Shown in pieces: positions 34,391 to 63,569 of a stretch of DNA of 64,000 nucleotides. The position numbers and the translations under genes are program-made. The notes beneath the pieces were generated by a model. That model had not been told where the DNA came from. It saw only the letters and a list, made by a program, of their open reading frames with translations, and did not search any database. The stretch is taken from assembly GCA_013115135.1 (NCBI GenBank), contig JABANP010000123.1:1-64000 (forward strand). Reading direction: 5' to 3'. The number at the start of each line of letters is the position of its first letter. The first letter of the stretch is position 1. The DNA is from Perkinsus olseni. Its lineage: Eukaryota; Perkinsozoa; Perkinsida; Perkinsidae.

Positions 34391-34667
34391 CAGCCGTCAT
34401 TGAGTATCATTCAACATCAGTATCATTCTGTGGCTCCTTGCGAAGGAGACAAGCTCCAAGGAGGAGCTGTTATTGCGACAAGCCACGGCACATGAGAATT
34501 CGGAGAATGCGTTGCAAAGGGTTGAGCTTAGACGGTCGAACTCTAGCCGGTAATCAGGATGAAAAGCGACATAATCAGTGCATGCAAGTAGGTTAACGAC
34601 CCTATAGCTTAGATCTCCGGGCCATAACTCGACGGAAGAATCTGATGAGGAACGATCAGTTTGTATG

Positions 34668-38351: not shown

Positions 38352-38788
38352 GTGACGTACATGCTGGTGGTCTGGTCTGGTGGGCCGCAGGTCTGGGACT
38401 CTACCTCCGACTCGGAGCTTCTCGGAGCCTCCGAGAAGCGGTGTCTCTATTTTATGATCTTACTTATGCTTCTACTTGGACAGGAAGCGGCTGGCGGTGG
38501 TTTGGTATCTGTGCTTCGAGTATTCCTGTTCGCGTCTCTCCACTCGTCCGTGTCTTCCCGTTTCTGTTTCCTTTGGCTTTGCGTTGGAAGACTCAGCGGT
38601 TGGTGTCCGACAACCAGGGTGGCACGGTTTTCCGTGGTCGGGGTTGTTCGAGGCGTTAACTTAGCTGAGTATGGTGCGGTCTTAGTGACTGCTGTGGCGG
38701 TTTGTAGGGGCGTCGGTGGCCTACGGGAGTCTGCGTTTGCTTGTTTATCGCTTCCTTTTGCGTCTGTTTTTCCCCCTTTCTTTCACCC

Positions 38789-40981
38789 ATGCCGTCGCGC
38801 GAGCCCCCTAGGCGTCAGAGTAGGCGTGCCAAGAGGGTTCGGGTTGTGGACCCGGCCTCTGGTGACGGTGCCTTGTTCGAGGACCCTGGTCACTTGCGAA
38901 GGGCTTCGGTAGAACGGTTTCGCCGACTGCAAGAGGAGGAGCTTGTGCATTTTCAGGATGGCTCCTCGGTCAACTGTTGGTTACCGGTATTGAACTCTCC
39001 CCTTTTATCCTTGTCGGCGTTCCCGTTGTTGGCGGTTATTCTCTCGTGTGTCGACTCGTCACGGTTGCCTGCCCTATGTGATAGGGTGACGGGGTCGCCG
39101 TCTCCTGCTCAGCAGGTTGGTATAGACGGTGAGGTCGACCAGGTTGTTGCGGAAGTCCTGCGGCGCATGGCAGCGGCCGGAGTGGACGTCTCCACTTCTC
39201 ACGTGGGTGGTACGGTGCGGCCACATATCCTGCAAGCTCTCTTGGAGGAGGTTGGGGATCCTGAGTCTCAGCTTCCTCGGGACCTCTGGTTGGGTCGGGA
39301 ACTGGACGACGGGGTTAACATTGGTTTGCGTTGTCCGATATCGGCGACTGGTCTCTACCCTGTGTTCGCGGGTAAGTCGGTGAAGGACGACCCCTTGAAG
39401 TTGGTGTGGTCTACCTCCAATTACCTGTCCGCTGAAGGGGATCTTGCACCTCTAGTCCATCAAGTCCTTATGCAGGATGTTCAGTCAGGCTTCTTGCGCC
39501 CGGCAGCCCGTGCTGAGGTGAAGCATGTATGTCGTCTGGCGGCGATAAGCAAAGTGGGTGATACGGGCCCGACCGTGCGGCTGATCGAGGATCACCTCAG
39601 GAGTGGGTTGAATGGGTTGTTATCTTGCGACGAGAGCTGTGCTTTGCCGTACCTCAGCGATCTGCACTCTCTGGTGTCGGCGGTGAGGGCGGCTGGTGCC
39701 GGGTTGGCTACCGTGCAACTTGATATTCGACATGCCTTTAGAACCATTCGAGTTCATCCCTGTGATGTTCCGTTGTTGGGTCTTAGCCATTCCGACTCTT
39801 TCTACCTTAATTTATCTCTACCGTTCGGCTTGCGCAGTTCACCTTATTGGTGGACTCGCTTTGCTTCATGTTTGCATCGTATTTCGCATTTTTTGGTCCG
39901 CTTGAGCGCCGGCTCGTTAACTACCCCTGGGTCCTCTGCGGCGCTCCCGCTTGAGGGTGGCCTTGTCTACGTGGACGACGTCACCTACGTTACGTCGGAT
40001 GAGAAGCGGGCGGGGCTCCTGCTCGCTTTGCTGTGTGTCCTGTGGGCGCTGGTCGGTTGTTCGATAGCCTATCACAAGGTGGTGGTCACTAGGTTCTCCC
40101 GAGGGCCGGCGTCGACGAAGATTCTTGGTTTTGCTCTCCAGTCGGATTCCGCGGGTGTGCTATCCCTCGGGATACCTCAGAATAAGTTGGATATGGTATC
40201 GGACCAGCTTCGGCAACTGCTGTCTTCTTCAAAGGTCCCGGTTAGTGTGTTGTCCAAGTTGGCGGGACGTTTACAGTGGATGGGTCAGTTAGCTCCTTTT
40301 ATACGCCCTCTTCTGGCGAGTCTCTACGGTGCGTATGCGGTTGCCCAACGTCGTAACCTCCGCTTCTTCCCTCTGTCGCCGCGGTCGAACTTGTCCACTT
40401 CGGCACGGGAGCTCTCGAGGTACATTGCTAACGATCGGATTCAGAGGGCCATATCGGTGTTCGGCCCAGGTTCCAGTCTAGGGGAGCCTCTGGTGCTTAG
40501 CTGTGATGCTTCAACGGTCGCCTTGGCGGGTTTGATTGTCCTGGAACCGTCGCGAGTGTTCAAGTTCCGGGTGTTTGTGAGAGATTTGCCCTACATCCTA
40601 AGGGCTCACCTCCTTCGGGATGTTGACATTCCGACGTCGCGAGATATATCTCGGTTGGAGGCGTTGGCTGCCGCTATCACTCTTCTTCTCGCTCGGGATT
40701 TGGACCTGCCTGGTGCGAGGCCACTTTTGCTCCGCTGTGACAATGCTGGAGTGGTGCATATGTTGCAGAAGTGTTATTCCCGAGACGAGGCTTTACAACC
40801 ACTCTTTCGTCTGTTGGCCCGTGAAGTCTTTTCGCGTGAGGTAGCAACGATGCACATTCGCACTCAATATAATGTGCTAGCAGATAGACTCAGTCGCGGT
40901 GACGACTCTGTCTGTGGTTCTGTTCTGGGTATCTCGGGGGCCCTTAGCCGCGTCCTTGCAGTCTATACGTCTGAGTCGTAA
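38789..40981 (+). CDS. Reverse transcriptase with RNase H (DIRS-type)
   Basis: 730 aa from ATG 38789 (the frame is open from 38741). The start is basic (RRQSRRAKRVRVVD). RT motifs: motif A LDIRHAFRTIRVHP, the LPFGLRSSPYWW stretch, and the catalytic YVDDVTYV, then a thumb with LAGRLQWMGQLAPF. RNase H residues: D in CDASTVALAG, E in SRLEALAAA, D in CDNAGVVHM, D in LADRLSRG. Everything needed for activity is present and uninterrupted, in contrast to the broken recombinase downstream. Confidence 0.93.
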   Translation: MPSREPPRRQSRRAKRVRVVDPASGDGALFEDPGHLRRASVERFRRLQEEELVHFQDGSSVNCWLPVLNSPLLSLSAFPLLAVILSCVDSSRLPALCDRVTGSPSPAQQVGIDGEVDQVVAEVLRRMAAAGVDVSTSHVGGTVRPHILQALLEEVGDPESQLPRDLWLGRELDDGVNIGLRCPISATGLYPVFAGKSVKDDPLKLVWSTSNYLSAEGDLAPLVHQVLMQDVQSGFLRPAARAEVKHVCRLAAISKVGDTGPTVRLIEDHLRSGLNGLLSCDESCALPYLSDLHSLVSAVRAAGAGLATVQLDIRHAFRTIRVHPCDVPLLGLSHSDSFYLNLSLPFGLRSSPYWWTRFASCLHRISHFLVRLSAGSLTTPGSSAALPLEGGLVYVDDVTYVTSDEKRAGLLLALLCVLWALVGCSIAYHKVVVTRFSRGPASTKILGFALQSDSAGVLSLGIPQNKLDMVSDQLRQLLSSSKVPVSVLSKLAGRLQWMGQLAPFIRPLLASLYGAYAVAQRRNLRFFPLSPRSNLSTSARELSRYIANDRIQRAISVFGPGSSLGEPLVLSCDASTVALAGLIVLEPSRVFKFRVFVRDLPYILRAHLLRDVDIPTSRDISRLEALAAAITLLLARDLDLPGARPLLLRCDNAGVVHMLQKCYSRDEALQPLFRLLAREVFSREVATMHIRTQYNVLADRLSRGDDSVCGSVLGISGALSRVLAVYTSES

Positions 40982-43629: not shown

Positions 43630-44517
43630 CTACGGGGATGGATATCCTGTACATGTTCCGATGGTTGCCAGATCACGTACCATAAATATCAAAGCCGGCG
43701 TTCCTATACGCCCCGATAGCGGCCGCATTCTCGTAGCTCACATCCATATATATCCACTTCACTCGAGGTTTCGCGTTCCCAATCTGATCACGATGATGCT
43801 ACTCTCTTATCTCCCCGGAACATTTCCTAGTCGTGTCTAATTTAACAGAGTGGTTACATAGCGGAGCAATCATCTACTATCGAATGCCTCAGAAACTGAT
43901 TCTTTCACATCGTATTGCAACAACCTCCATGAGACCTACGAGTTCAATGAACCTCTTCAGCATCTCTGTGGCGATCCCTCGGCCTCTCCAGCCGTCTCTC
44001 ACTCGAACCCAGGGTATATACACATGATCCGTGCCGGCGATACGGCCAAACTCAACAGACCCGACTACGACCTGAGCACACTCCATCTTAATGTACAGTA
44101 GGATTACTGTTAACCATCGGGAAACTCAAGTCAATGGTTTAGTGGAATCCTGAGATTCTGCCAATAATAACACTAATAAAGTCATCAACTAGCGTCAGGC
44201 TAGGCTTAGGAGCCATAGTTGTGCACTTGCACAACTACAATTACACAGGTCTTATGAGACTCTCATAATGAGAGATATCACCCGAGACAGACCAACAACC
44301 CTACCTTTTTCTCCGGATAAACTGCCACGAAAACCGCAGCATTTTGGTCGGACTTTCCTATAGTGAGCTCATCAGACGAGTTAGCCAATCGATATTCAAG
44401 TTCGGAGGCGTTGGAAATCAACGGTCCTTCCCGGAGGTGAATGGTCAAACCGAAGACCGCCGATGGAAACAACGCAGACGCGATGCAGAAGAGGCGACCG
44501 AGGCTGTTAACAGTCAT
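43630..44517 (-). CDS. GNAT acetyltransferase with probable signal peptide
   Basis: Four exons fit in phase with GT-AG introns: 44517-44305 (71 codons), 44086-43940 (49 codons), 43783-43681 and 43646-43630 (TAG), about 159 aa. The start MTVNSLGRLFCIASALFPSA looks like a signal peptide or anchor; an ATG at 44652 is also in frame. GNAT features: acetyl-CoA loop in WRGRGIATEMLKRF (exon 2) and the C-terminal NAAAIGAYRNAGFDIYG (exon 3). The substrate is unknown. The last intron is only 34 nt. A related first exon sits at 53313-53513. Confidence 0.75.
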
Positions 44518-44659: not shown

Positions 44660-45693
44660 GCCTCTACAGAAATCGGCCTAAGATCCTTAGGCTAAGAAGC
44701 GATACTCTAAATCATCTGTCGACTGACCGATTTCGGGTCTGGAAACCATGAAGGAAGAAAGCAGAAGTATGATACGATTCGATTAAGTTCACCCGGGGGG
44801 GATGAGCAGTGGCTACCTCATCACCAGCCTGAACCATATGTACTCGGAGACTTGTTTGTCTGATTGCTGACCTGATGGTAGATTAGCGACCCAACCGGGC
44901 ACCATGCTCGCTTTGAGTCTCGCCTGCGCCCTCACCAGTCGTTGTCGTGAAGCAACGGAGCGACTTGGTGTCATGTGCTCGGTTGCTAAAGCTCGCTTTC
45001 GCTCCATGTCTCTGCCGAACAACGCAGCTGGCAGTCTGCAAGCAGTCCCTATTAAGGGAACGGATGCTTCGGGAATCCCGAAGTTTGATGGCAATCCCGG
45101 CCGGAAGCCTGGTAAGCAGGCCCCGGTTTAATGGTGCTCATCTTTTAGTCCTTTCTATGAATGAGAATCTATCTCGTAGCCATCGGTATAACACTGGTTG
45201 GATTGGTTAAGGCTGAATATAAGTATTACTGCGAATTCACGGAGGCTCTGCTCGCGCAGTGTATTGGTAGACGTAAAGGAGGTCTGGTAGATACTCTGTC
45301 ACAGGATGCCATCCTGAGGATGGTGCCTTGACTCATCCAGACCATCCGAATGAAGTTCGGTATGTCTGCGACGTTTGCCACATAAAGGACATTCCTACCA
45401 ATTCCGCGAGTGGTTCCCTTCATGTGATGTCCCACCCGAAATGTACTTGATGAAACAGAATAATACTTGAATGATTGAAACAGATATTGGTGTCGGAGCC
45501 TCGAATTACAATATATCATATGAAAGACAGAGGGGAATTGCCTTCTCTTATATTACAAGCTGCAAAATCAATTTTATACCTGCATACTATTGTCTCACCG
45601 ATGAGCTCACGGGAATGGACTATTTATTCTAAAAGCTAAAGCCGATTGCCCTGCTGTGCCCTCAGTTGCAGAGTGCCTTATCCACGCTAGAAA
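44660..45693. other. Gene-poor stretch with one-base-centred palindromes
   Basis: No supported gene. Palindromes include CTTCGGGA-A-TCCCGAAG (45067-45083) and the chained pair at 45302-45323 (CAGGATG-C-CATCCTG overlapping CCATCCT-G-AGGATGG). Confidence 0.6.
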
Positions 45694-46077
45694 GTGTGGG
45701 CCACAGTCGGCGACCGTCAGTCGCCAGGCGACTTCCGTGAGCCACGGGCCCAGGTATTGGATGGCAAAGTTTGCCAGGCAAACATCACCGAAGAGCTGAG
45801 TCCTGATGGTCCGCGTTGTCGGTTTGGGTTCCAAATGCGAACGGACGGTGGTATGTTGAAGGATTTGACCGTGGTGCAGACTGTTGACCATGTTATGAAG
45901 CTCGAGACAACATCGGGCCACGACGATGGCGACGCTCCTGTGCGAGCGGAAGCATTCGTCTTTCGATTTTTATGCAAGGAAATACCGCATACTGCGGTCA
46001 TGGTCACTTACGACGACGAACCCGTCATCCTATTCCATAAAGGTATGCGACCCAGGCGTTTATCTGAATCCGGGTGA
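45694..46077 (+). CDS. Hypothetical protein
   Basis: 127-codon frame with coding-like composition in its middle and end (CRFGFQMRTDGGMLKDLTVV; AFVFRFLCKEIPHTAVMVTY). I recognise no family. Its 5' part contains two palindromes (AGTCGCC-A-GGCGACT and the chain at 45762-45783), so the start may be altered or the true first exon lies elsewhere. The opposite strand is also open for 96 codons. Confidence 0.35.
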   Translation: MWATVGDRQSPGDFREPRAQVLDGKVCQANITEELSPDGPRCRFGFQMRTDGGMLKDLTVVQTVDHVMKLETTSGHDDGDAPVRAEAFVFRFLCKEIPHTAVMVTYDDEPVILFHKGMRPRRLSESG

Positions 46078-46979
46078 GAGGCAAGGAGGACACCCGCGCT
46101 GTTGAAAACAGAGTTCCTTAGATACTTTCCGTCCACACGATATCCGAGACGCTATAGACAAGCGCAAAAGTGAGTGCGTGACACGTCAATCTCAAAACCG
46201 TGCTGTTATCACAAAACAAATTCGCTATCTCAGACACACGATAGCCTTGCAGCTGCGCCCCCTACCCTTCGGGTGGCAGCTGCTGCGCAGCTGCTCGTAG
46301 AGCGCCGTTTCAACAACAGGTTTCTCAAGCGCATAGCGAGTGAATCTTGTTAAATGCAGCATCTCCATGTGAACCCTATCAACAACTGAGCATGCGATGG
46401 GTAACTTACTCAGAGTGAGAGTCCAAGTTAAGGTGAAATAGATTATCGATAAGCGAGTGCCTATTCTCGTCGGGAATTTCCCGAGCAGTTATCCTTAAGA
46501 CGTTTTCCCGAGCACTACAGAAACCACAACTCGTTGAAAGATGGAAACTACATGCCAATTGTCTGAGATATGTGCTTTAACTCGGGTGCCACATTACTAT
46601 TAGTAATACTGCCTGAGGCTTTCTAGAGCTGATATTCGCCGTAGTCATATCGGCCTTCTACATAAGTGAAGAAATGATTTCTTAGAAATCATGTCGTCGC
46701 TGTACCGATCCTATTCCATGTCTGCATCGGATTCTTGGCCACGATTCCCTGAGATAACGAGTCATTAACTGATGTTCTCCAGCTGCCGGAGGGGGTAGGC
46801 ATGTGCCAATTTATCATTCAGCTGATGGGGCGATAACAGATTGCCTCATATTAGTACCTGCTATGCGACGTCCGGCATTACGCGGGCGATATCTATCTAG
46901 AGCTGGGCCTCTGCGAGACGAAGGACGACCTCTACGGGCGGCCCTTAGCTGGCGTGTTCCCGGATGATACCTGGAGTAT
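46078..46979. other. Gene-poor stretch
   Basis: No supported gene. Palindromes at 46593-46607 (ATTACTA-T-TAGTAAT) and 46674-46692 (ATGATTTCT-T-AGAAATCAT). Confidence 0.55.
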
Positions 46980-48693
46980 TCACGAGTCGAGCCTGTGATT
47001 CGTAGTAGACCATTTGAACGACAGCCGACTTGCATCCAAGAGCTGCTTCACTAACCTGATTTGCGTTCCTATGATGATCTCGACCCCATAACCGTGTCCA
47101 CAACGACCCCAATCTCTCCATTCCTTGCAAGTGCAGACTATCTCTGTTTCGGACGCAGTCAAGAGGTTGAACCTATAGTAGCGAGCCAGAACCTCGTCTA
47201 AGGACATATCTTGACCTACGGAAGGAATGATTTTTCAGCGGGTCGGAGTCGGAAATTGTTTAAGGAATCACCTTCGCGAGGGAATTCTGAAAGTAACAAT
47301 CCTCTCAAATAAGTGTCGATGTCAGCATTAGTGGCTTATGGGAGTGGATGAGGGTAGATCCTTCGCGAATCGACGAGGAAGTAACGAACGCCCGCATCAT
47401 TAGTCGGCCTCCCCATTAGTTCGTTTACGTTTGTGGTAACCTAAGAGCATCCATCTAGTTGATTGAATCAACTTATTGTTCTAAAATAGAAGAGCAGGTG
47501 AATCACCTGAGGTGATAGCTCGACGGACGCCTGGAATGCTCACCTCTTTTAGCGACTCATTCGAGACTAACCGAGTTCCCTTCAGCATCATTTGCGTCTG
47601 ATATTCCACCACGTCGATCGTCTCAGGGCGACGCACGAAATGTTGCGGACTGCTATGTCTAAGAGACCGAAGAATCTGCGCGGAGATCGACAGAAAGTAC
47701 AGTTTGACCGCTCCTCCATTAGAACTATACCTCCAAGATCCTCTCGACGAAAATTGACAGCGGCATATTATTGCGGCCCAACATGCGAGTTACGTTCCGA
47801 TGGAATGCTTGAAGCATTATGCTTCGACAGTGTTGTTCAGAACCTACGGGGGGATTGCTCCCATGTTATCGAAGAGTTCACACCCAAACTCACCTGAGTG
47901 CCCTGTAGTCCTGTACTCGTTAAAGCAACATTAGGAAAGCCATACCGCTCGAAATCTAACGTGTACCGTAGATAGTTCGCTCCACTCGGGTGCTCTTCTT
48001 CAACTTCGTGGATTAAAGCAATGGAGAGGAGGAAGTAGAGGTCGTCGGTAGGACTGGCGTGCAAGGCATACTTGAGATGCTCCACCTGATACGGTTCCAC
48101 GCTCTCTGTAGTTGTAGCCACTCCCCTGTGATCGGGGAGCGGATTGGGAAATTCGAGTCAGATTCTACAGGATTTGGCATTACCATGGCGGCATCAACGC
48201 CGAATTTCGATCTGTTGTCCTTAATATTCTTCGAGAAGTGATAGTAGCAACGTGCTGAATTAGGGAATAGCGGTAAAACGCACCCAGGGACTCTCTCACC
48301 ATTCCTTTTCCCAGGTAAGAGAGCTTCGCAGGCCCTTAAAGCTCCTTGATGCGCGTCATGGACACAGAGGCTTGTTGAATCATTCAAGCCCCGCTCCCCA
48401 TCAGTGAAAAATCTCACGAGGTTGTCCAGCTCAACTAACAGGTGCTCGTATGCGGACTGACATTCTTCATCGATTATTGCCAGCATGAAAGGCACGAATG
48501 TATGGCGGCATTCGTTGCGAGCCGCGTCGAACCTGTCCGAAAGCTACTCAAATAAATGAACGCGTATCATTTGCGCACGGACGCTACTAACCATATCCTG
48601 GTGGTTCCAATCCAAGCCACCTTCAAGCTTCCGAGAATTATTCGGTTCTGGGCATCCATGTAAATAGGAAAGCCATCACCATGGGATTCGAGG
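46980..48693 (-). pseudogene. Mutator-like (MULE) transposase with SWIM finger
   Basis: Pieces on the minus strand in order: FPIYMDAQNRIILG (about 48650), FDAARNECRHTFVPFMLAII and FFTDGERGL (48531-48400), CVHDAHQGALRACEALLPG, ARCYYHFSKNIKDN (MULE C..H region, about 48250), then in another frame HEVEEEHPSGANYLRYTLDF (to 47837), and finally the SWIM finger CTCKEWRDWGRCGHG (about 47100-47140). The order is that of MULE transposases. Frames change between blocks, so introns or decay are present; no terminal inverted repeats were identified. The plus-strand ORF at 47592-47897 overlaps the 3' part and is probably a shadow. Confidence 0.72.
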
Positions 48694-49279: not shown

Positions 49280-50902
49280 ATGATCCGACTAACTATTCTA
49301 TGCATCATTCACGCTGCCCGCTCAGAGTTCACGGGTAGGGCGGCGGTCTTCCATGCCACGACGACGAACCTGTGCAACAGAGATGTAAAGGACGCTCATG
49401 GCAATCCCGTTCCCTGTGGCATATCTCGAGCTAGAGAGACTCTCGGCCTGACGTTGCCTGGTATGGAGGACGGTACCCTCACCACAAGGGAGCATATTAT
49501 TATTACTAAAGACGGCAACGTGAGGGTCAAAGCTATGCCAAGCCGCCCCTATCAGTATTTCATGTACGTCGAGACTCCGAAGAACGTCAAACTTCATCAG
49601 CTGTACAACCACCAAGCCATCCCCCTCGTCGACAGTACGCCTGAGTTCGAAGCGCATCGTCTTTACGGTTCTGGGCTGAAACAAGATGGTTGGACTGACG
49701 AAGGCATGACCAACCTCGACGGCAAGACGTTGCACATGTGGACCAAGCGTGGACCACAGGGCCTCAATAAGACCTCCCGCTTCAACTACACGGCTGTTTA
49801 TCGAACTTGCATGTACTCTGATGTTTGGACGTTCTTTACCGACTCTAATGACTCGAGACCTGTGAAGCTGGTGGGGTCTAACTCGATCTGCAATAAGGCC
49901 TTGCGAGTGACAGAGTACTCTAACTACCGTACCTTGGATGAAAAGCTAACCGTGGAGGACAGTATTCAAGTGTTGTACGAAATGTATGGTATCAAGTCTC
50001 GCATGTTATCTGTTGGAGAGGCCCAGAATGTTCCCAAAGTATGTAAAGACCTGCTAGCTGCCCCCTACGTCTGTGAGGCCGAGCGGGAGTTCTTCGGAGA
50101 CGGCCAAGAGGTCGATTGGACACCCCCCGGAAGGATGATGCGTGGAGCTACAGCAAGCCAGGATATCATCTCGTACTTCGACATCGCCGAGGGCACCGCG
50201 GCTTATACGTTTTTCCATCACCAATATGACAGGCGCCTCCTTCAACTGCTCAAATTTGAGTTCCCTAGCAATTGCAACAAGACCGGTGGGACGTCTACCC
50301 TGAACTTTTGCCTCTTCGTCGCTGTGGATGCAACTATGTCAACCTACTCGCTTGAGGCTGGGCTGACGTTCGTTGATGTAAATGATAAAAGCAAGCAGGC
50401 CCTCCTGTTCATCACGGTTGTCATCGGCAAGAGTCAAGGACAGCATGTTATGAGGCTGGGGGTCGTGGCCATGGGGACAGCTACGGTGTGGCAGATGGGC
50501 GCGGGAGTCAGTCTAAGCATCGACGTCACAGTCGACGGCAAGGTCTCAGGTGATACGGAGAAGGAGGTATTCACAGCTCAAATACAAGTATCGGTTTCAT
50601 TTAATGTTAATCTTCCCGAAGTTGGAAGCATCATGGACTGTACGATATATGCGAAAATTGGTATCACAGCCGCTCTCAACAACGATATCACGGCTTACGG
50701 TGAGATAGGTACGAGCGTATCCCTGCTCATCGCTGGCGCTGGTACTGGGATTAACATCAAGGGGAGCACACTTGACAACCGGCCCGATGTGTGGTCTTTC
50801 AAGTCGGAGGTATTCTTGACCGCGTGGGTGAATATTATTGTATGGAGCGACAGCTGGAGATGGAGCTGGGAAATCTGGCATGCTAGCCCAGTCTATTTCT
50901 GA
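49280..50902 (+). CDS. Secreted protein of unknown family, 540 aa
   Basis: Single-exon ORF with a hydrophobic start (MIRLTILCIIHAARSE) that looks like a signal peptide, then a globular region with paired cysteines (LCNRDVKDAHGNPVPCG; NSICNKALRV; KVCKDLLAAPYVCEAE) and several N-x-S/T sites. The C-terminal third is beta-rich and repetitive in style (VFTAQIQVSVSFNVNLPEVG; AYGEIGTSVSLLIAGAGTGI) and ends in a Trp cluster (WSDSWRWSWEIW). I infer an exported or surface beta-rich protein. The ORF is remarkably clean within a decayed neighbourhood. Confidence 0.8.
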   Translation: MIRLTILCIIHAARSEFTGRAAVFHATTTNLCNRDVKDAHGNPVPCGISRARETLGLTLPGMEDGTLTTREHIIITKDGNVRVKAMPSRPYQYFMYVETPKNVKLHQLYNHQAIPLVDSTPEFEAHRLYGSGLKQDGWTDEGMTNLDGKTLHMWTKRGPQGLNKTSRFNYTAVYRTCMYSDVWTFFTDSNDSRPVKLVGSNSICNKALRVTEYSNYRTLDEKLTVEDSIQVLYEMYGIKSRMLSVGEAQNVPKVCKDLLAAPYVCEAEREFFGDGQEVDWTPPGRMMRGATASQDIISYFDIAEGTAAYTFFHHQYDRRLLQLLKFEFPSNCNKTGGTSTLNFCLFVAVDATMSTYSLEAGLTFVDVNDKSKQALLFITVVIGKSQGQHVMRLGVVAMGTATVWQMGAGVSLSIDVTVDGKVSGDTEKEVFTAQIQVSVSFNVNLPEVGSIMDCTIYAKIGITAALNNDITAYGEIGTSVSLLIAGAGTGINIKGSTLDNRPDVWSFKSEVFLTAWVNIIVWSDSWRWSWEIWHASPVYF

Positions 50903-51589
50903 ATACACGGAGAGCCTCCCTACCGGGAACTCCCCGGCAGGCGAAAGGATATTTCAGGTTCTCTCCGATTCTGATCTCCGCTGCTGCTTTAGAATATTAG
51001 AAGATGCAAACAACTGCTGAAGCCTCCTTGAGTGAGGTTCTTCAGTTCACCGACGCTCTGTAGTCACTTTATTCCGCATTTAATGAGTCTCTGAGGATCG
51101 AGGAATGAGTATTTATTTCCATTGACCTGATTAAGGGCTTCGTGAAGAGAAGCCAGTAATACATGATGCAGGTGAACTATGACAATAATTTTCCTTTATA
51201 TTTCAGTCTGAAATATCTGAAATTTTCAGATAATGCCCCGCGCCGGAGTGACGCCGCCGACGGAGTTCGTCACGATCGTGAGGAATTTCAAATTTTATCG
51301 TTCCGGTCAGTCCGATGGGGTTTATAACCTTGGCAGATCTGCCCATAGAAAGTATTTCAGCCTCTTGCAACAGGCATATTGCTATCCCAATTGTTTTAGT
51401 TATTGGGTTAGAGTAGTCACTCATAGTGACTCACTATGAATAGCCGAGACAGGCACAAGACGTTCTCTAGAAAGTAGCGGTGTCGCTGAAGACTCCAAGC
51501 TCTGGTCCTTCCCAGCAGTTGAGACTGAGCTGCCGCTGATTCTCTGCTGAGTTACAGCCTGTCACTCACTGACAGTGAGTGGCGGGTGA
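50903..51589. other. Gene-poor stretch with palindromes
   Basis: No gene. One-base-centred palindromes at 51207-51221 (ATTTCAG-T-CTGAAAT), 51214-51232 (9-bp arms around T), about 51420-51440 (CATAGTGA-C-TCACTATG) and 51563-51581 (CACTCACTG-A-CAGTGAGTG). Confidence 0.6.
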
Positions 51590-52260
51590 TGGTGTCACAG
51601 ACTGTGACTCACAGTGACTGTACATGTATCCCTTCGATGGGTACCGGGGCACAGTTCCATCAGTGCCAACGAACGGGCCGATGAGCTGGCAGCCAAGGGT
51701 GCCTCCATGAGGGAAGTCTCTGCGGAGACGGAAATCAGTGTGAGGACTCTTCGGCGGTATCAAGGAGAAGCTGGTCGTCTGTCACTGCGCAAGTGGTGGT
51801 CAGACAAGAGAGCCAGCCTGGGCCCTTCTGTCAATGACTTCTTTTACTGCGCTTCACACGCTCGTTTGGGGATCCGCGGGGAAGTCACGGCAGCTAGCAG
51901 TGCCGTTGTATTCGGAAGGGCCCCAGCCCCAGCCCATCTCTATAGATGCGGGGTGGTCAACTCGCCAGAGTGTGACTGTGGGGCGCTGGTGGGGAACACG
52001 CGGCACTACCTCCTCTCCTGTCCGCTCCTGCAGCAGGCTAGGAATAGGGTCAAAGGTGGTGTCCCCTACCATTTATATAAACTAATTGTTGATTTGAAGC
52101 GACGCAAGTCCTTCAATCAACTTTGTTCGGCCCTCATGCAGTATCTCGATGCTCGCAGGGGCTTATTGTAGTGCCGGGCAGGCACAACTTTCTTTCGCCT
52201 CTGTTTTGTACGAAACCCACCATCGAATATTTGCTATCAAAAAAGAAAAAAATAAATAAC
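51590..52260 (+). mobile_element. 5'-truncated LINE with RNase H and A-rich tail
   Basis: Frame 51614-52171 starts inside an RNase H domain (LRWVPGHSSISANERADELA, the typical last RNase H box of non-LTR elements). It continues to a CDCG...HYLLSCPLL zinc-binding end usual for LINE polyproteins. An A-rich tail (AAAAAAGAAAAAAATAAATA) follows near 52240. 5' truncation is normal for LINEs. The upstream junction coincides with a cluster of one-base-centred palindromes. Confidence 0.85.
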
Positions 52261-52462: not shown

Positions 52463-53127
52463 GGATAGTTGTGCTGCTGGACTAAGTCCCTTGGACACTT
52501 AACAAAACGTGAAATGGACATCACACACTGTGACACACTGTGTGTCACACACAGCATACATCGACGTTTACATGCATTCTTCAATCCTATAGATGAGGAT
52601 ACATGAGAGTAGATTCTCATATCATCAAACTAGTAAAAGAAACAGTAGGATCTGTTAAGGCTTTCCGCTGAGAAGAAGGACCCTCTACGGTTCCACACCT
52701 CCATAGTACTCCCTACCTATGGTGGAAGTAAAGCCTGCATCACTGAACATCATGAATCGAGATCTGGGGTGTCCCTCTAGGTAGCTTGCCGAGAGGGATG
52801 CCATTCTGAGGTCGGGCCTGCCTTCGCGGACCTGAGACGAAGCACGATAGTGTTGCTATATCTGGCAGTCACGAGACTTGAGCTCTCTCGGAGGGAGTCT
52901 CCCCATCCCCTTCCTCAACGTATGGAACGAAGTATCGAACTTGTGAGAATCTCAGCTATTCCGAATCTCTCGGATAGCTCATTCGAGAAATGAAGCTTCC
53001 GAGGATGTGCTTCTCGGAAAAGAGGGAAGCATGTTCGAACTTGCATGTTCGATCCTTGTTCCATGTCGCACTCACATGCTCGAATAGCTTGAGAAGCATC
53101 TGAGATCCGACGCTTCTGGAGTCCACA

Positions 53128-53149
53128 TGGAAGGTCCTTCCAGGAAGGA
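53128..53149. repeat. Chained palindrome (word, inverse, word)
   Basis: TGGAAGG-T-CCTTCCA and TCCTTCC-A-GGAAGGA overlap: GGAAGG, its complement, and GGAAGG again, with one base between each. Confidence 0.95.
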
Positions 53150-53513: not shown

Positions 53514-54317
53514 ATTGCCTCAAGAAAAAAACCGATTATAGATATGTGTAGAACTCATACACGAATTTTCAAGGCTATATTCGCATGCTGTGGCTCACAC
53601 TTTTTGTCATCAGCTTTACGTGTGATTTTGGTACTTCAGTTGCATTTAAACAGGGCAGACGGTTTGAATTGCCCTCAAGGCCGCAACAATGCCTCGCCTC
53701 TTACAATCAAACACGAGACAATTCAGGGCAGAGGAAGATCTCTCTAATGGTGGTATTCGACCTTGCTCCTTGATCTTGAGTAGCTTCTACCGGGGTCATT
53801 TTCGACATTCCACCCTCCGAAACCGAGTCTGGTTCACCCACATCTACGCCGCAATCGTCGTGTGGTCGACATTTCCCATGGTTCTGCCACGCCGTTCTTC
53901 CTATTCTTTGGCTGGGATGATGTGGGTCCACTCGCGCGAGAACTCCAACCTCAATTTGAGGTCCTCAAAGGAAGCAGCTGCCCAGCGACATCCTCAAGGA
54001 AGCCACTCGTGTCCACGAAGCCCGCCGCCGCGCCTTGTATAGCCTCCTCGAACTCCACGACTCCTCTGATAGTGCGGTCGGTCGTCGTCGAGGTTGTCAG
54101 TTCCGTCCGAGTGACCTGGTGATGAAGTACTTCCCCGCCGGTTCTCTCCTACAGTCCAAGTGGGTCGGCCGGGCCGACTCGGCCCATATTCTGTCCAAGC
54201 AGTTCTAGGTCGAGGGACAGTGGTTCTAGGTGATGGCAGCACTGAGGATACCCATAACCTCCGACGTTACTATGGTAATGGTCGAGTCGTCGGGGATGAC
54301 GTCTTCAGGATTGATAA

Positions 54318-54340
54318 GTCTGCAAATTGCAGACTGCAAT
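54318..54340. repeat. Chained one-base-centred palindrome
   Basis: GTCTGCAA-A-TTGCAGAC overlaps ATTGCAG-A-CTGCAAT. Confidence 0.94.
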
Positions 54341-54661
54341 CCCTCCCCCTACCACCAACCAGCTGATGGAGTCCATTGATATTCGGCTATCCACTGAGGA
54401 TGCTCCAGATCCTTCTCTGTCTGCCGCTTTCGCTGTGGGCGACGTCGTTGCCATAAAAGTCATCCACTGCCCGTCTCTCGACGACTCTTTCGTTATCTTC
54501 AATCCTTCTACAAGCACCGCCATTGTGGTCAAGATTGAAATTGAAGAATGAGATGATGCTGATGATGATTTTATTATTTATATTTGTGCATTCTCTAAGA
54601 GGGGCGGAGTGACACTTGCACTCCGCTTTCGGATGTGCAAGGTCATCACCTTGTGCGAGTC

Positions 54662-54688
54662 AATCTCACACTCCGGGAGTGTGAGATT
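54662..54688. repeat. One-base-centred palindrome, 13-bp arms
   Basis: AATCTCACACTCC around G, followed by its exact reverse complement; further matching GTGCGA/CGCAC flanks it after a small indel. Confidence 0.95.
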
Positions 54689-55308
54689 CGCACGCCTCTC
54701 TCTCAGTATCTTTGTATATCGCCCGCCTAAATGTGTAACCGTGAAACCGCCAGATTCCCCATTGTCCCACGGTTACGGATACTAATCCTTTTGCACTTAG
54801 TTGTCCTACTACTGGGCACACTCTGCTGGTCTGTGGCCAGCTACACTCTGTACTCTTTTAATATGACACCTCCGGTTGTGTTCAACACAAGAGCAACACA
54901 ATGTGTTGCTTCATGGCAAGGATATGACAATATCGGCCGGAGTGTTCCTACTCATTAAGCAGGAGACTATTTAGGAGTACGAGCGCCTCGGAGGCACCGC
55001 CTGAGGCGGCGCCTCCCCGAGGTACCAAGCTATCCTTGCATCGGCGTGGTGACCCCGCCGTGGTCCCTATGTTGTTGACAGTGTGGCCGGAAATACTGTC
55101 TTACTCAAAAAGGTTGCTGGTGAGCCGCCCATACTCTCTACCGCTAGGGTCAATGTTGATCATCTAATCCATCTCAACCTGTCCGGCGAGTTCGTCCAGC
55201 AACAGATAACTGCTATGCCATAGCAGCTATGGGCCATAGTCGTGAATCTGCCGGAACATCGTCTGACCCTTCTGCGCCTGCAGACACTTCCTCCGCACTC
55301 CTTGTTCC

Positions 55309-55330
55309 CAAGGAACTTCCTTGAAGGAAG
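55309..55330. repeat. Chained one-base-centred palindrome
   Basis: CAAGGAA-C-TTCCTTG overlapping CTTCCTT-G-AAGGAAG. Confidence 0.95.
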
Positions 55331-55471: not shown

Positions 55472-55493
55472 GGAAGGAATCCTTCCGAAGGAT
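55472..55493. repeat. Chained one-base-centred palindrome
   Basis: GGAAGGA-A-TCCTTCC overlapping ATCCTTC-C-GAAGGAT. Confidence 0.95.
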
Positions 55494-55765: not shown

Positions 55766-57331
55766 GCAGCTCTATCACGTGGATGTGGAAGGTGGCGATA
55801 TCATCCACGAATCCTCGCCATCGCTCCAGCAGTGGGTCAGACCTGCGGACATTTTTTCTCTTTTTGTCGGTTACTCGTGATCGTCTGCCAAGGGATCGTC
55901 TTCGTCTCACTCGCGACTCTTGGCTGAAGCTGGCTAAGTATAACTTCAGTACGGCCGAGTACTCTCCTCCTTCGTCTAGTCCCCTTGAATCACTGCTCTG
56001 ATTCTCCCTACGTCTGGTCATTTGAATCACGGCTATGATTATCTGATTCATATATCTCCCTCTGAAATGCATCTGGGATCTATCAACTATTGAATAGTTG
56101 AATAGCGAATAGTTACTATTCGCGTCATTAGTATCTAATATGTTGTAACTCCAACTGATGGTTGGTGGCAGTGATATTTGGGAACCTGATTACCCCTTAA
56201 GCTCTTGCAGCACCAAAAAATGATAACTTAAAGCCTTCGTGGCACCAAAAAAGTTTGTTGTACTAGTCGATTTGTATTGTCTGAGATAGAGTGATCTATG
56301 CTTAAGGTCGTTACGATAATGTTGGTATGATACATTCTCGTATTGTTCGACTTGTATGGTCGTGACTTCCTATTTCCTGCTGCTGCTCCGCTCGGCATCC
56401 GTTGCAACTCATTATTCTCTGGAAAGGACTAGGATGTAATGGGATTCTGCGCGGATCATCCGCGGCGGATGTTTGTGTATGCGTGCGGTGGCCTTATAGC
56501 TGTGTCGCCAACCAGTCGTTGGGTCGTTCGCTCGGCTAACTCCGTACTCCTCTGATCACTCTCCCCTCTAATTGTCACAAGTACTACTTAAACTCAAGGC
56601 CCTATCTGTAGTGTTCACCAGTGAGTACATCCCCGCACATATCCCTGCATATTTACATGAACCCCGCTACAACCACGCTCCGCCTTGTACATGCGTGCAT
56701 AGCTTATCCCTCGCGAGGTAGTAAGCCCCTGATAGAGATTCTCACACTCCTTCCCTGCCTGCGTTGTCCGTGAACAGCAGTGGAGAAGCAACAGTCGCTT
56801 GGAGACTTTTGCTAGTTGGCAAGACTTGCCAGGCAAGTAAAAGGCGGAGCGACCTGAAATTGGAGGTCCAAACTCGCTTTCTGCATACGTGCTAGAAGCT
56901 TGCACGCATGCAAATGGCGGGTTTGGCTTAGCATAATGATTAGGGTTGGCTGAGCAACAACTCACACAGAACCCTGACAGGTACTTGTTGCGCTCGCAGA
57001 ACCTAATGCTACCTACTACCTTCGCTGCCGCGGATAATCAGGCCATAGGGCTCCCCATTCACTGGATGCTCTTTCGCACTTCAACTTGCGTGCATGTGCA
57101 TGCGCTGTAGATCACGCTAGCAGACATAGCTAGCTTCTCAGCTGACAATGGAGCCGCACTGTGCTTAGCTTTAGTACGTTCAATCAGGGAGACTTAAAGT
57201 GGCCTCAGGCCATCACCAAGCAGGTCATTAGAAGCTGTGGAATGTCACTTGAGACATGCGGCCTTGCTTGGTAAGGCCTCTTTGATCAAGCGGCTCTTGT
57301 TCTCGGTAGTTTTCCGACGCAGCCCCTTCTT
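55766..57331. other. Gene-poor stretch with palindromes
   Basis: No supported gene. One-base-centred palindromes include CAACTATT-G-AATAGTTG and GCGAATAGT-T-ACTATTCGC (about 56086-56125) and the chain at 56817-56838 (TGGCAAG-A-CTTGCCA overlapping ACTTGCC-A-GGCAAGT). Confidence 0.55.
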
Positions 57332-57696
57332 ATGGTTTGCTTTTCCCTGACTTGGTTGATCGCCTCTCAAGCACAAGCATTTTTGACAGCTCCGTACTTC
57401 GGCGTCTTCATTCACCATACGAATTCTTACCAAATGGTTTGAGATGTGAATGAGAAGGGTGAGGTCAACTTGACCTGGTCAAGTATACCACCACTGTATC
57501 CTTGAGTGGTGATATATCGTCGGTCGTCGAGAGTCGCCGATTCCCACTCATGGGTCCTCAAGAGCCTGGCGTTTACACTCTCAACCTCACAGATGATATG
57601 AGCCGACAGTTTGGCTCTTACGTCAAATGTGTCGTTGCCCTTATCCCGGGTGCCGTGTATCACACTCACGACTTCTACGTTCTACGTGCGCCCTGA
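57332..57696 (+). pseudogene. Secreted-protein family, copy 1 (broken)
   Basis: Starts with a signal-like MVCFSLTWLIASQAQAFL followed by TAPYFGVFIHHTNSYQMV, then TGA near 57438. Later coding blocks (FPLMGPQEPGVYTLNLTDD; VVALIPGAVYHTHDFYVL) are in another frame. Two one-base-centred palindromes sit in it: the chain at 57462-57483 and TGCGCCCT-G-AGGGCGCA at the end (about 57686-57703), which creates the final stop. The close copy at 61775-62123 lacks both, so these insertions probably broke this gene. Confidence 0.75.
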
Positions 57697-58719: not shown

Positions 58720-59416
58720 GAAAGACCGAGACTACTATGCTCTGCGCCATTGACTCCTGTGGTTGGTACTCTCCTACATTGCGATTGGCACCAAATTGTG
58801 GCACTACGACGTCTCGTCTATATTCACCAGTTGCTATTCAGCCTTTACTGCTCCGATGACGCACTCAAATATGTACACAATGAGGCGATTTCTTTGCGGA
58901 TCTATCCTGGTTATCGCGTAGCGGTCATGTCGTAGCCCATTAGGAATTGGATTCTCTGGTATGACCAGACTACTTACCATTTTGTATTCAGTCTCAGGCT
59001 CATTCTGAGATTTGTTTATAGTATTGATGTCGGTGACGCGGCCAGCGCGACTCCGTATTGCTTATGATGAAGCTTGGAACTTCCAGTTCTAGTATCGTCA
59101 TGATGTGCATGTGCTCCACCAGCTCATGTGTTATTCTGTTGTACATTTTGACGAGCCCGGGATGGATGAGGGGTGGTCATCTACACGATTTTTCATTGCT
59201 TTTTTTCCTACTACTCCAACCTTTTCTTTTGCCTTTCATCTTTTTACGCGATTGTTACTTGCAGAGTTTCGATAAGTCGTCTTAACAGAATGAAATCACG
59301 GTTATGAGAGACTTATCAAATAGGCAGCGACTCATTATAGCAATTTTGTATTAAAGCTTTCGCGAGGAATATTAGGGTCGTGTTCCCGGGACGGAGTCAG
59401 GGAATGATCCTGCACC
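58720..59416. other. No supported gene
   Basis: A 61-codon frame at 58750-58935 and a hydrophobic 75-codon frame at 59058-59285 have no support. Confidence 0.4.
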
Positions 59417-59690
59417 TGTTTGGTTCGCCCGGCCGCCTATCAGTGAGAGACTCCCGTTAATTGATCCAACACAACTGAATACATTCCTTATCTGGGTCAA
59501 CTCTAACGTATTATCTGTGTCTCCAGCAGGCTGGCTACTTCCAGCCTCTGGGATCTGCATCATCTGCTATAGACGATCTGTCCAATTATCGTTGAGCTTG
59601 TAGCTCAATATATCGATCACGCTTCAGCGCAATGTCTGCTCGTATCCACGAGGACAGCGCTTGTGTGACGACGGATGCGATCTAGCCAAC
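59417..59690. repeat. Local duplicate, copy 1 (without insertions)
   Basis: Near-identical to 60032-60332 in direct orientation. At 59468-59477 it reads AACACAACTG with no inverted repeat, and at about 59661-59677 TTGTGTGACGACGGATGCG. Confidence 0.93.
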
Positions 59691-60031
59691 ATGCCTCCCC
59701 AGAGAGCCACACAGGCTAGCCATCGAAGTAATCTCTGATATGATACGGGCAGTTTCTATCCGAGGCTGAGTCCCCAATCACGGTACTCAGTTTCTCAGAT
59801 TCAACGCTCCGCTCGGGAAATAGATGAGACTTACAAACCGCTCATCAGCACGTACTCCTGGTACTAAAGGAGTAACTCCCTGGGAGTTAGAACCTCTCGT
59901 CTTGAGAAATGGCGCAAGGCCTCAGGGAAGACCATCTGGTTTTCCCTCTTATAGAGTCTCAGGAACACCTCAGTGATGATCAAAAACGGTCATCTCTCAA
60001 AGCAGTCGAGCCTTCCCCGGACGGTGCACCA

Positions 60032-60332
60032 TGTTTGGTTCGCCCGACCGCCTATCAGTGAGAGACTCTCGTTCATTGATCCAACACAAGTTGTGTTAAA
60101 CAACTGAATACACTCCTTATCTGAGTCAACTCTAACGTATTATCTGTGTCTCCAGCAGGCTGGCTACTTCCAGCCTCTGGGATCTGCATCATCTGCTATA
60201 GACGATCTGTCCAATTATCGTTGAGCTTGTAGCTCAATATATCGATCACGCTTCAGCGCAGTGTCTGCTCGTATCCACGAAGACAGCGCTTGTGTGACGA
60301 GTGTCACTGACGACCGATGCGATCCAGCCAAC
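60032..60332. repeat. Local duplicate, copy 2 (with two insertions)
   Basis: Relative to copy 1 it has 14 extra bases at 60090-60103 and 13 extra bases at 60301-60313. The first makes AACACAA-G-TTGTGTT, then repeats AACAA. The second places GTCAC after GTGAC and repeats TGACGA. Otherwise the two copies differ by only a few substitutions. Confidence 0.93.
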
Positions 60333-61774
60333 ACACCTATAAATATCACCTAGGTATAGGGATTCTTCTAGTCCGAAATTCACGTGTTGTTGCGGCGTAG
60401 CCCCTGTCGCCACATGATGTGGCCCACATGATGTGGGCAACATCTTAAACCGCGAATGGTGTAACTCAAGCGTCTAGGACGCAGCTCGAATAAGTAACGA
60501 TCGTCCTATGCCCTTGATCGACTAACTTATCCAATTTATCGGCATGCCTCCCGTTCTACTAGAACGGTTCTAGGAATGCGGTTTGCTTCAACCCGAGAGC
60601 TAGGCGTTGGGTTGCAAAGGGGTGAACCATCAGTAGCTGCTTTCCATAAGACTAGTCTAAAGGAGCTTACCATATCAAGGTTGATCACACCTTCGACGAA
60701 CATCAACATGTCTGACAGTGATAGACGCATCCACGAGACATCTTCGGAAGCAAGTCGCTGTTACCACTACTACTGTAGTAGTAATACACTAGCGGGAGAT
60801 GATGTAGCCATTGGTTGCGAGTCTCAATTTGATCGGCAAATGGTTGTAGTGGTAGGCTACCACTGGTAGCTGACGAACATTTCATTGATCTTGACGTCCT
60901 GGGTCTGGGCACCAGATGTTGCGGATGCGCTGGAACTGTCCTTGAACAACTGCATCACGGCGCAGAATGGCTAACTTTTGAGCACTGTCTCAAATATCCA
61001 CACTGTACCTAGTCGGAAGTTCCGAATGTTCCGACTCGGAACATTCGGAAGGACCATTTCCGAATGGAGCACTGGGGAATGATGTAGTCTATTTAATACT
61101 CGCCATAACCATTGAGGGAGGTTGTGTCGAGAAAATACACGACTCGGAGTCGGAACACACCGAATTTGATTGTGAAAAGGTTCAAATTGCATAGGGCTTA
61201 TTCAATTGATCTTAACGAAATGTCTAGATTGACGTGGCGTATGTTTTAAAGTTCGTGGTGAATATCAAATTGACCGGATTTCCTTAAATTGATCGAGAAA
61301 AGTTTATAATTGATCGGGAAATGTTGTGAATACTCTCTAGTAGAGTAAATTCAACCCCCATGACGGTGTGGGTGATTTCGCCCTGCGGCCATGTCCCCAA
61401 GTAGGAAAGTGAGTCGATGATGGGTGGAACGTCGAGATGAACAACGGACCGTCATTAACCATAAAAGCAAAAAATGTGGAGGGAAGTTGTGAGGGCCATG
61501 TACTGCTTTCTCTCCGACGTTCATAGTCAACTCCAGATTGGAAGGAATAAATAAAGTGAGCTACTCTACTCTACTCCTAGCTTTAGAGGGAATTTGACCA
61601 TGAACGCATGCACGAGGGGCTAGCGGCTTAGCACAATATGCAACAACGCACGGAGGCTCCGTGACGGAGCACACTGACAACCACTTGCTGTGCTTGGCGA
61701 ACACTGTTCACAGATTCTATTGGTACAACTATCATACATTTCTTTTTGTAGATTTTTCGAGGCAACCCCTTCTA
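60333..61774. other. Gene-poor stretch with palindromes
   Basis: No supported gene. One-base-centred palindromes include GCCCACAT-G-ATGTGGGC (about 60423-60439), CCGTTCTA-C-TAGAACGG (about 60552-60568), ACTACTAC-T-GTAGTAGT (about 60766-60782), AGTGGTAG-G-CTACCACT (about 60848-60864), 61020-61050 and a chain near 61647-61675. Confidence 0.6.
61020..61050. repeat. One-base-centred palindrome, perfect 15-bp arms
   Basis: TTCCGAATGTTCCGA (61020-61034), C (61035), then the exact reverse complement (61036-61050). Confidence 0.97.
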
Positions 61775-62511
61775 ATGGGTCGCCTTCTCCTGGTTGATTG
61801 CTACTCAAGCGCTAGTATCTTCGACAGCTCCGTACTTCGGCCTCTTCCTTCATACTACGGATTCTTACCAAATAGAATGCGATTATGTCAAGTATACCAC
61901 GGTATTCAGCCTGTCGATCCTCGAGAGTCCGCGGTACCCGCTCATGGGTCCTCAAGAGCCTGGCATTTACACTCTCAACCTCACAGATGATATAAACCGA
62001 CAGTTTGACTCTTACGTCAAAAGTATCGTTGCCCTTATTCCGGGTGCCGCGTATCACACTCACGACTTCTACATTCTACGTTACAACGGCTCTTACTATC
62101 TTTCTGCGGAGTTCCAGAAGTAACCACTCACTTTCATCAGGACCTCATACATCCAGGTTCCAGGTGAGTTTAAATATGAGGAGACTAAGGCGCCGTATCG
62201 GCGAATAGTTAGCACTGTGCACTACTCCGACCGTCTTATCGATGGTTTGGATGTCAACATACACGTTAGTTGTGAGAGCGAGCGTGGTACAGACTCTTTC
62301 TTCCCGGCACTGGTCCTGTGCTCGCCTACTTCGCGCAGGGGACCCGACACTTCTCTGTAGAGACCTTTCTTGATGACTCATCAATGATGAGGCGAAAGAG
62401 TTTTATTGCTCAATCGAAGACCCGCCTGTGAGAGACTTCGGCCAGATCGTCTTCGCCACGCAGAGAACGATCTATACGTCCTTTGAAAGGGCCCTCGTGG
62501 CCATCGCTTAG
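61775..62511 (+). pseudogene. Secreted-protein family, copy 3 (broken)
   Basis: ATG 61775 is out of frame with the family body (TAPYFGLFLHTTDSYQIE, PRYPLMGPQEPGIYTLNLTD, IPGAAYHTHDFYILRYNGSY; open 61794-62123). The second half continues in shifting frames (KAPYRRIVSTVHYSDRLIDG, HVSCESERGTDSFFP, YFAQGTRHFSVETFLDD, EFYCSIEDPPVRDFGQIVFA) to TAG 62509-62511. At least three shifts make it a pseudogene. It is very close to copy 1 over about 57350-57690 / 61790-62080, pointing to a recent duplication. Confidence 0.75.
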
Positions 62512-62582: not shown

Positions 62583-63569
62583 ATAAAATGTGACATGGTC
62601 ATGGTCTCCAGCAGTGTGACATGGTCAGCAATACATGTGATACACCCTGAGAGCCTCAGGGTCTGAGTCTCTCGATTCGACAGCCACCTGGTACGGTACC
62701 AGTGGTACCCTTCGAGAGTCTCGAAGGGTAAATCACTTCCTTGACCTGATCGTTGGCGGACTCCGACCCAGGTCACGTTTCTCAATGTCCAGAAGAAGCT
62801 CTTCCGGACGTCAGGACACTTTCATGCGTGACAGCGTGCGTCTCAGCCTTCGTCAAGGACTTCACATGGAGTCCCAGGGGTCCGAATTTCTGAACCAAAT
62901 GAGAGGCCGCACGAACAGCGAACACGAAGAGCCTCTTAAGATGGAAGAGGAATCTTCCAGGACTACTGGACCAGGAGGAATCTTCGTCTGCTCGACGTCG
63001 TCTAGCAGCCGCTCGGACCCGACCTATGTCATTCAGCCACTGGCTGAAGTTGCCAGATCGTATCAACGCTTGTGACGAACGTGCATATTGTAATACGCAC
63101 GTGTGATATCCCACGTGTCACCACGTGGCATACTTCAATAACATAGGTATCTTAGCAACATCGCATACTCGTGAACGAAAATTTCACTAGTCTTCAGAGG
63201 ATCTACCAGCTATGGAAGACAGGAAGCCCGCAACGTCTCCAGGGGCGCCCCTGTTCCTGGCTTATTACCCTTCGCCGAAAGGCTTTCGGCGTATCTGGTT
63301 AGACAGCATTAGGCGCGCGCTGATGATCCGATGTCTGGTAGCTAATGTGCTCGTGCGTCAAACACGATGTAAATGAGTTCTGCTCCATAGAATACGCTAC
63401 AGTTCAGGAGCGTCAATATTTCTGAAGCAGAGCAGGGCGCTCAGGCGATCCCTCTCGGAGGACTTCTCTGAGGTATCCTGTGGACTGTGTCGCCAGCCTT
63501 CGTCTGCAATGCAGATCCTGCATGTCTCGTTCATGTTAGTTTATAGAAAGTCTTGTCGATAAACTCCTA
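62583..63569. other. Spacer before secreted-family copy 4
   Basis: A plus-strand frame (62785-63075, 96 codons) and an antisense frame (62782-63114) are both open with no family signature. Palindromes: ACCCTTCGAGA-G-TCTCGAAGGGT (about 62707-62729), GGTACCA-G-TGGTACC (about 62695-62709) and CGCCGAAAG-G-CTTTCGGCG (63273-63291). Confidence 0.5.

Follow-up and report, generated by a model that had tools for sequence, protein, structure and literature searches.

A 917-nt sequence at positions 59417–60333 of the window, by which we mean the whole 64,000-nt stretch of Perkinsus olseni DNA analysed here, starts with TG, ends with CA and is bordered on either side by CACC, a 4-bp target-site duplication (TSD) at 59413–59416 and 60334–60337. 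Its ends are direct copies of each other on the forward strand, copy 1 at 59417–59691 and copy 2 at 60032–60333, and in a pairwise comparison of the window their ungapped pieces were 95–98% alike. An 890-bp relative (C823) is arranged alike between two GAGG borders, and another locus (L021) presents the empty site. Judged by these sequence features, the two copies are the 5′ and 3′ long terminal repeats (LTRs) of one 917-bp LTR element of ~0.9 kb. An element of this type inserts with two identical LTRs, so copy 1 can be read as the 'before' copy and copy 2 as the 'after' copy.

Two insertions set copy 2 apart from copy 1, one of 14 nt at 60090–60103 and one of 13 nt at 60295–60307, and together they account for the 27-nt difference in length between the window element and its C823 relative. 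Realignment thus bore out the preliminary description, which had reported two near-identical direct duplicates with 14 and 13 extra nucleotides in copy 2 and had taken copy 1, free of either insertion, as the unaltered form; its placing of the 13-nt insertion at 60301–60313 denotes the same gap, which can slide. The anatomy that it gave was also correct: the longer insertion reads AACACAA.G.TTGTGTT, after which the end of the word is repeated, and the shorter one sets GTCAC against GTGAC and then repeats TGACGA, each insertion thus combining an inverted with a direct copy of a nearby word.

Several other features lie in the same stretch. An open reading frame (ORF) with a CCCH zinc finger is followed by one with a reverse transcriptase domain at 37341–40981, probably a non-LTR retrotransposon, and tandem arrays occupy 29396–34392 (period 126 bp) and 21752–23138 (period 62 bp, 22 copies). 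The ORF at 49280–50902 encodes a DUF6740 protein of a multi-copy family and matches a Perkinsus olseni protein at 95% identity across 96% of the ORF's length; all of its organism-named matches were from Perkinsus, with one of 21 carrying no name.

Both LTR insertions obey one 8-bp formula, a point absent from the preliminary description. An 8-bp word W (bases w1 to w8) is replaced by W1-7 + rc(W) + W2-8, giving a 22-nt product with a net gain of 14 nt, in which the left palindrome is centred on the complement of w8 and the right one on the complement of w1, w8 and w1 being the two bases that would border an element flanked by W. The 14-nt insertion fits with W=AACACAAC at 60083–60104 (site 1; one mismatch, a substitution), and the 13-nt insertion fits with W=GTGACGAC at 60294–60314 (site 2), without mismatch once one missing base is allowed.

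We searched for this formula in the window and in a 200-kb sample of its genome composed of 20 ten-kb stretches (264 kb together), three of the stretches (L042, L046 and L047) being sited near earlier matches. In the 200-kb sample, a word length of 8 gave 49 exact matches against 0.0 in 10 shuffles, lengths of 7 and 9–15 gave none, and length 6 gave one against 0.4 expected. The form without base loss, in which both border bases are kept at the junctions, was found 0 times in this sample for every word length from 5 to 15, against the 49 exact matches with both complementary centres. The 13-nt analogue with a 5-bp word occurred 14 times in the sample against 2.3 expected (for example at L032:7478 and L033:1189); a few of these are one repeated motif in L047, and the analogues possibly reflect a second element type with 5-bp duplications. 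Over the full 264 kb, the exact 22-nt form was present 75 times and appeared in none of 10 shuffles. Without L042, L046 and L047, 30 exact copies remained in 170 kb, which extrapolates to roughly 11,000 in the whole assembly of 61.5 Mb in 968 contigs, an estimate with a large variance because three stretches contain 22 of the 30.

Among perfect inverted repeats of the window (arm of at least 7, loop 0–8), the loop was exactly one base in 59 of 104, and five shuffles of the window yielded only 22–35 such repeats in all. Direct 6-mer repeats at a spacing of 14 had both complementary centres in 97 of 200 cases against 12.5 expected, and at no other spacing from 8 to 30 did more than 10 have both.

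In the window, exact 22-nt products outside the LTR element lie at 2656–2677, 27026–27047, 28971–28992, 44253–44274, 45302–45323, 45762–45783, 46669–46690, 47495–47516, 47804–47825, 51594–51615, 52532–52553, 53128–53149, 53948–53969, 54164–54185, 54319–54340, 55211–55232, 55309–55330, 55472–55493, 56450–56471, 56817–56838, 57462–57483, 60552–60573, 60849–60870, 61649–61670, 62370–62391 and 62688–62709, and products with one mismatch at 3101–3122, 6501–6522, 29095–29116, 29300–29321, 46463–46484, 51416–51437, 60767–60788 and 63268–63289. Another product with one mismatch lies within the LTR element at 59867–59888; it was filled in 3/3 spanning paralogue alignments and therefore probably predates the copies. 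Of the 39 window sites with at most one mismatch, 12.2 would be expected to fall mostly within an ORF of 150 aa or longer, the ORFs being mechanical with introns ignored; only one does, that at 55472–55493.

Comparison with paralogues gave the direction of the change. Site 1 was empty in 9/9 spanning paralogue alignments, the 13 nt of site 2 were absent from every other copy that reached that position in the alignment, and a private 14-nt insertion elsewhere in the LTR of another copy (L008:1651) was likewise empty in 9/9. On this sequence comparison, the palindromic insertions are the derived state in multi-copy families, in keeping with the earlier proposals that copy 1 retains the older form and that the insertions vary between copies. 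An ancestral palindrome followed by precise deletion is ruled out at the two multi-copy sites that were empty in all nine alignments, and it is also disfavoured because both LTRs would have started out identical when the element inserted. The other spanned sites had only one or two empty partners, or every partner was filled. This test left out L004, L005 and L006, which overlap L008, L002 and L003, and its mutual 'filled' rows for L022 and L046 are the same DNA, L022 lying within L046.

We also aligned the sampled loci with each other and tallied gap lengths blind to their content, a test independent of the formula that included L004–L006 and L022 and excluded L001, which lies inside the window. 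Gaps of 1 nt (33 rows), 2 nt (16), 4 nt (10), 14 nt (19), 31 nt (25) and 47 nt (14) stood out, all other lengths having fewer than 10 rows; with the duplicates L004–L006 and L022 removed, the counts were 14 at 14 nt, 25 at 31 nt and 14 at 47 nt. All the listed 31-nt gaps lay in the window's 126-bp array, the copies of which differ by gaps of this length. The formula fitted 14 of the 19 rows with a 14-nt gap (11 exactly, 3 with one mismatch), corresponding to 13 distinct sites and to 13 of 16 distinct copies. The five rows that did not fit (three distinct copies) represent one shared site, at L002:2016, L003:2016 and window position 59932 compared with L008, where the gap contains a palindrome with a two-base centre.

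In a further check, net length differences were read from the match coordinates of a genome search. Across window 53847–54611, which holds the exact products at 53948–53969, 54164–54185 and 54319–54340, copies on C522 and C294 were a net 42 nt shorter, equal to 3×14; as their figures are equal, these two copies are perhaps one duplication. A third C522 copy was a net 26 nt shorter across two exact products, where 28 was expected, and had a further large gap, lacking window 54256–54517 (262 nt plus a 6-nt match overlap), a stretch that the two other copies have and whose edges showed no scar-like palindrome at first look. Across the product at 56450, four more distant paralogue matches (77–83% alike) were a net 13, 24, 27 and 34 nt shorter, none by exactly 14.

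We also ran a two-hairpin scan of the 264 kb, in which a duplication had to carry both complementary centres and the spacing could take any value from 0 to 79. A TSD of 8 gave 90 sites, 75 of them canonical (14-nt product) and 15 other, and TSDs of 6, 7, 9 and 10 gave 4, 2, 0 and 0 sites, respectively; the means of three shuffles were 0 for TSDs of 7–10 and 5.7 for a TSD of 6. The longer variants keep the 8-bp duplication and have inverted flank on either side of it. Examples in the window are 51200–51230 (W=ATTTCAGA; inverted flank of both sides with a 3-nt overlap), 54605–54682 (W=CGGAGTGT; a 70-nt insertion, 45 nt of whose middle is unexplained by the arms), 54876–54908 (W=TTGTGTTG; a 25-nt insertion), 56085–56121 (W=AACTATTC; an unexplained middle of 3 nt) and 61012–61042 (W=GTCGGAAC; a right palindrome arm of 15 nt and an overlap of 6 nt), and 62669–62725 (W=CTCTCGAA) is a possible sixth, inside which the exact product at 62688–62709 lies. 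We examined 17 long sites: three that came from other loci, and the 15 non-canonical ones except for one whose centres coincide. In six, the insert consisted wholly of inverted left flank and inverted right flank overlapping by 1–6 nt, and in the other 11 the two arms left 1–48 nt of middle sequence unexplained. Counting TSD and centre, the left inverted arm extended as far as 18 nt and the right one as far as 16 nt. Among maximal perfect inverted repeats of the 264 kb (arm of at least 12, loop 0–12), 14 of 19 had a single-base centre, and the remaining five had loops of 6, 10 or 11.

Paralogues that span the long sites lacked the inserted sequence: the 70 nt at 54605–54682 were absent in 3/3, the 25 nt at 54876–54908 in 5/5, and a 24-nt insertion at L024:85 was absent from its paralogue L013. 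The 70-nt and 25-nt values are the sizes given by the 8-bp formula, and the sites had been listed before the paralogues were compared. The expectation that insertions would span 12–60 nt was thus borne out for a minority, such as those of 24, 25 and 70 nt, and failed for the bulk, as 75 of 90 sites are the 14-nt product. Removing a younger product exposed an exact older one at 3 of 114 sites, compared with 15 among 6300 random positions, and therefore one spot may be hit repeatedly. The three nested cases lie at L047:4818, at L047:7831 and at window 60409–60444, where the overlapping registers start at 60409, 60416 and 60423.

An 8-bp duplication whose flanks are inverted about the complement of the bordering base recalls transposons of the hAT superfamily, in whose excision footprints the hairpin-derived additions have as their centre the complement of the base that adjoins the transposon end (PMC5873905; also PMC3499496, PMC1978519). 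The palindrome centres in Perkinsus match this recorded signature. We interpret the palindromic insertions as scars of hAT excision, in which each hairpin would be opened at least 8 nt away from its tip and the ends would be joined through pairing of the two TSD copies, and we give this reading a probability of about 80%. The composition of W is consistent with it. The second base was T or the seventh A in 93 of 232 cases against 56.7 expected (p=1e-7, in a test made after the W logo was seen), and 15 of 116 words matched nTnnnnAn against 6.9 expected, which is the hAT (Hermes) target consensus (PMC10368747, PMC2803484); the Buster consensus nnnTAnnn (PMC3499496) was matched by 2 of 116.

The genome contains hAT elements. 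The hAT domain PF05699 was found at 21 places, and two copies with terminal inverted repeats are flanked by 8-bp TSDs, GTCCGGAG at L012 and GTCTGATG at L010. At L012:1968–1992, to the right of the hAT copy, the target word occurs three times, overlapping or in tandem, and it occurs once on the left. A further candidate at L046:683–1814 was rejected as an element with an 8-bp TSD, as its inverted ends are longer and the apparent TSD belongs to them; the element-like sequence there, with very long inverted ends, spans L046:640–1890 and is possibly Mutator-like. A search of three flanks of the two hAT copies, with two edges read, found no locus at which one copy holds the element and another the scar, and neither edge was an empty allele.

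The proposed footprints of Perkinsus differ from those usual for hAT elements, which are short and mixed (a customary trait and not a strictly diagnostic one), with 28 kinds among 128 in one published set (PMC5873905); here one product makes up 75 of 90 sites. The classical short footprint (16 nt, w1-7 c8 c1 w2-8) was unenriched, with 1 of 115 at a spacing of 8 against 7.2 expected, and tandem 8-mers, as plain TSD–TSD scars would leave, were no commoner at a spacing of 8 than at 9 or 10. This lack of enrichment of the classical form sets the repair outcome apart from the one described in yeasts and plants for maize elements (PMC5873905).

Putting these observations into an order of events, we propose that a hAT-type cut-and-paste transposon would enter an 8-bp word, giving W-element-W, and would later leave. 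Its insertion would duplicate the 8 bp, as the scars and the two hAT copies suggest. Excision would then close each flank into a hairpin with a single unpaired base at its tip; this base would be the complement of the one that bordered the element, as is found at both palindrome centres. The arms of the long scars suggest that these hairpins would be nicked at least 8 nt into the flank, away from the tip, leaving 3′ tails that run into inverted flank; because six of the 17 long inserts are wholly inverted flank, such tails can extend beyond the duplication into unique flank. The tails could pair through the two copies of the 8-bp TSD, the sole complementarity that is guaranteed, whereupon trimming of flaps and filling of gaps would yield W1-7 + rc(W) + W2-8. 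Since the duplication always offers this pairing, the 22-nt product would be the rule, and pairing elsewhere would give longer scars with a 1–6-nt overlap or extra middle sequence. Matches to repair proteins in the genome (one weak Ku fragment with E 4.7e-5, one SNM1/Pso2-type domain and nine of the DNA polymerase A family) do not tell which joining pathway is used. The absence of Ku had been considered as a reason for joining by annealing and was dropped, since the weak fragment is present and points neither way.

Polymerase template switching, in which the growing strand jumps to the opposite strand, is extended backwards along it for a short distance and then returns, was the origin favoured in the preliminary description, in the form of two successive strand switches. 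It yields inverted copies beside their source and makes hairpins in other genomes (PMC8794818). Switching would, however, vary both length and spacing, and what we found is an 8-bp word, a 14-nt gain and a loop of one base, with complement centres at both junctions; the hAT target bias of W, of the kind expected from a transposase, and the retention of the same 8-bp duplication in the long variants speak against it as well, and we consider it extremely unlikely. Another DNA-transposon superfamily with TSDs of about 8 bp (Mutator-like, Merlin or P) might have left the scars instead of hAT. Mutator-like (MULE) domains occur at 38 places in the genome, 32 of them above the cut-off, and the Mutator-like Muta1 has TSDs of 8 or 9 bp; yet duplications of 9 or 10 bp were seen at no site, Muta1 is reported to have no apparent target preference, against the nTnnnnAn of W, and its excision is described as mostly precise when TSDs are present (PMC5225508). 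A search of the genome for P elements gave no match, with a control that also matched nowhere, and so carries no weight either way. We regard this origin as very doubtful.

A break made without any transposon is another possible origin. A hAT-like transposase, perhaps domesticated, would make an 8-nt staggered break, fill-in would duplicate W, and hairpins would be joined likewise. No transposase is known to us that would form hairpins on both flanks of an empty target, which counts against such a break, as does the presence in the genome of elements with the same TSD length. The dominance of one product is compatible with it, and the scars far outnumber the hAT ends, with 49 exact scars in 200 kb against only 15 exact matches in 61 Mb to the one hAT terminal repeat searched. 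Such a disproportion would also be allowed by cut-and-paste transposition, and an origin without a transposon appears unlikely to us.

The joining of antigen-receptor genes offers a parallel, since the P-nucleotides of V(D)J coding joints, which are long in scid mice, arise as the Perkinsus scars are proposed to, from hairpin flanks opened off-tip to give inverted copies; unlike the scars, coding joints have no 8-bp word and no target duplication to pair the ends. The P-nucleotide footprints of hAT elements (Ac/Ds, Tam3, hobo and Hermes) share with the scars the 8-bp duplication, flank hairpins, complement-centred palindromes and joining by microhomology (PMC5873905, PMC1978519, PMC3499496), but the published ones are mixed and mostly short, whereas Perkinsus has one dominant 22-nt form in which the entire TSD is inverted. 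Short template-switch mutations (PMC8794818, PMC7954356) likewise produce local inverted copies in a single event, although a fixed 8-bp geometry and a target motif would not seem to be part of their mechanism. In the introner elements of Amoebophrya (PMC7789003), direct and inverted repeats are also spread across an alveolate genome, but these are retained elements with direct repeats of 3–5 nt, and the Perkinsus scars are element-free.

Footprints of hAT elements are already known, and what appears to be new is a near-uniform footprint with an inverted TSD in, by extrapolation, about ten thousand copies; the near-uniformity of the product and its abundance are the unusual aspects. In the open-licence literature searched, we found no description of a uniform 22-nt product or of such scars in Perkinsus. 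As a speculation that may well prove wrong, we suggest that the sealing of hairpin-ended breaks in Perkinsus is near-deterministic, the flanks staying together until the inverted tails have brought the two TSD copies into pairing, with the result that most departures end in the same 22-nt scar. The genome would then be a readable log of some ten thousand jumps, and the process a leading source of insertions beyond a few bases in non-coding DNA; in the boldest form of this idea, pairing would be directed by the transposase or a dedicated host factor and not by chance annealing.

Cut-and-paste jumps usually leave small, mixed scars, and past activity is counted from surviving copies. In Perkinsus, departure seems to leave a sequence that can be recognised almost without false positives (no exact match in 10 shuffles of the 264 kb) and that holds the target word inside it. 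If this reading is true, jumps of elements no longer present could be counted, dated and mapped, and the genome would supply a large natural data set on the repair of hairpin-ended breaks. It would also explain the origin of many perfect short palindromes in the genome of this parasite, which accordingly need not be regulatory or RNA structures.
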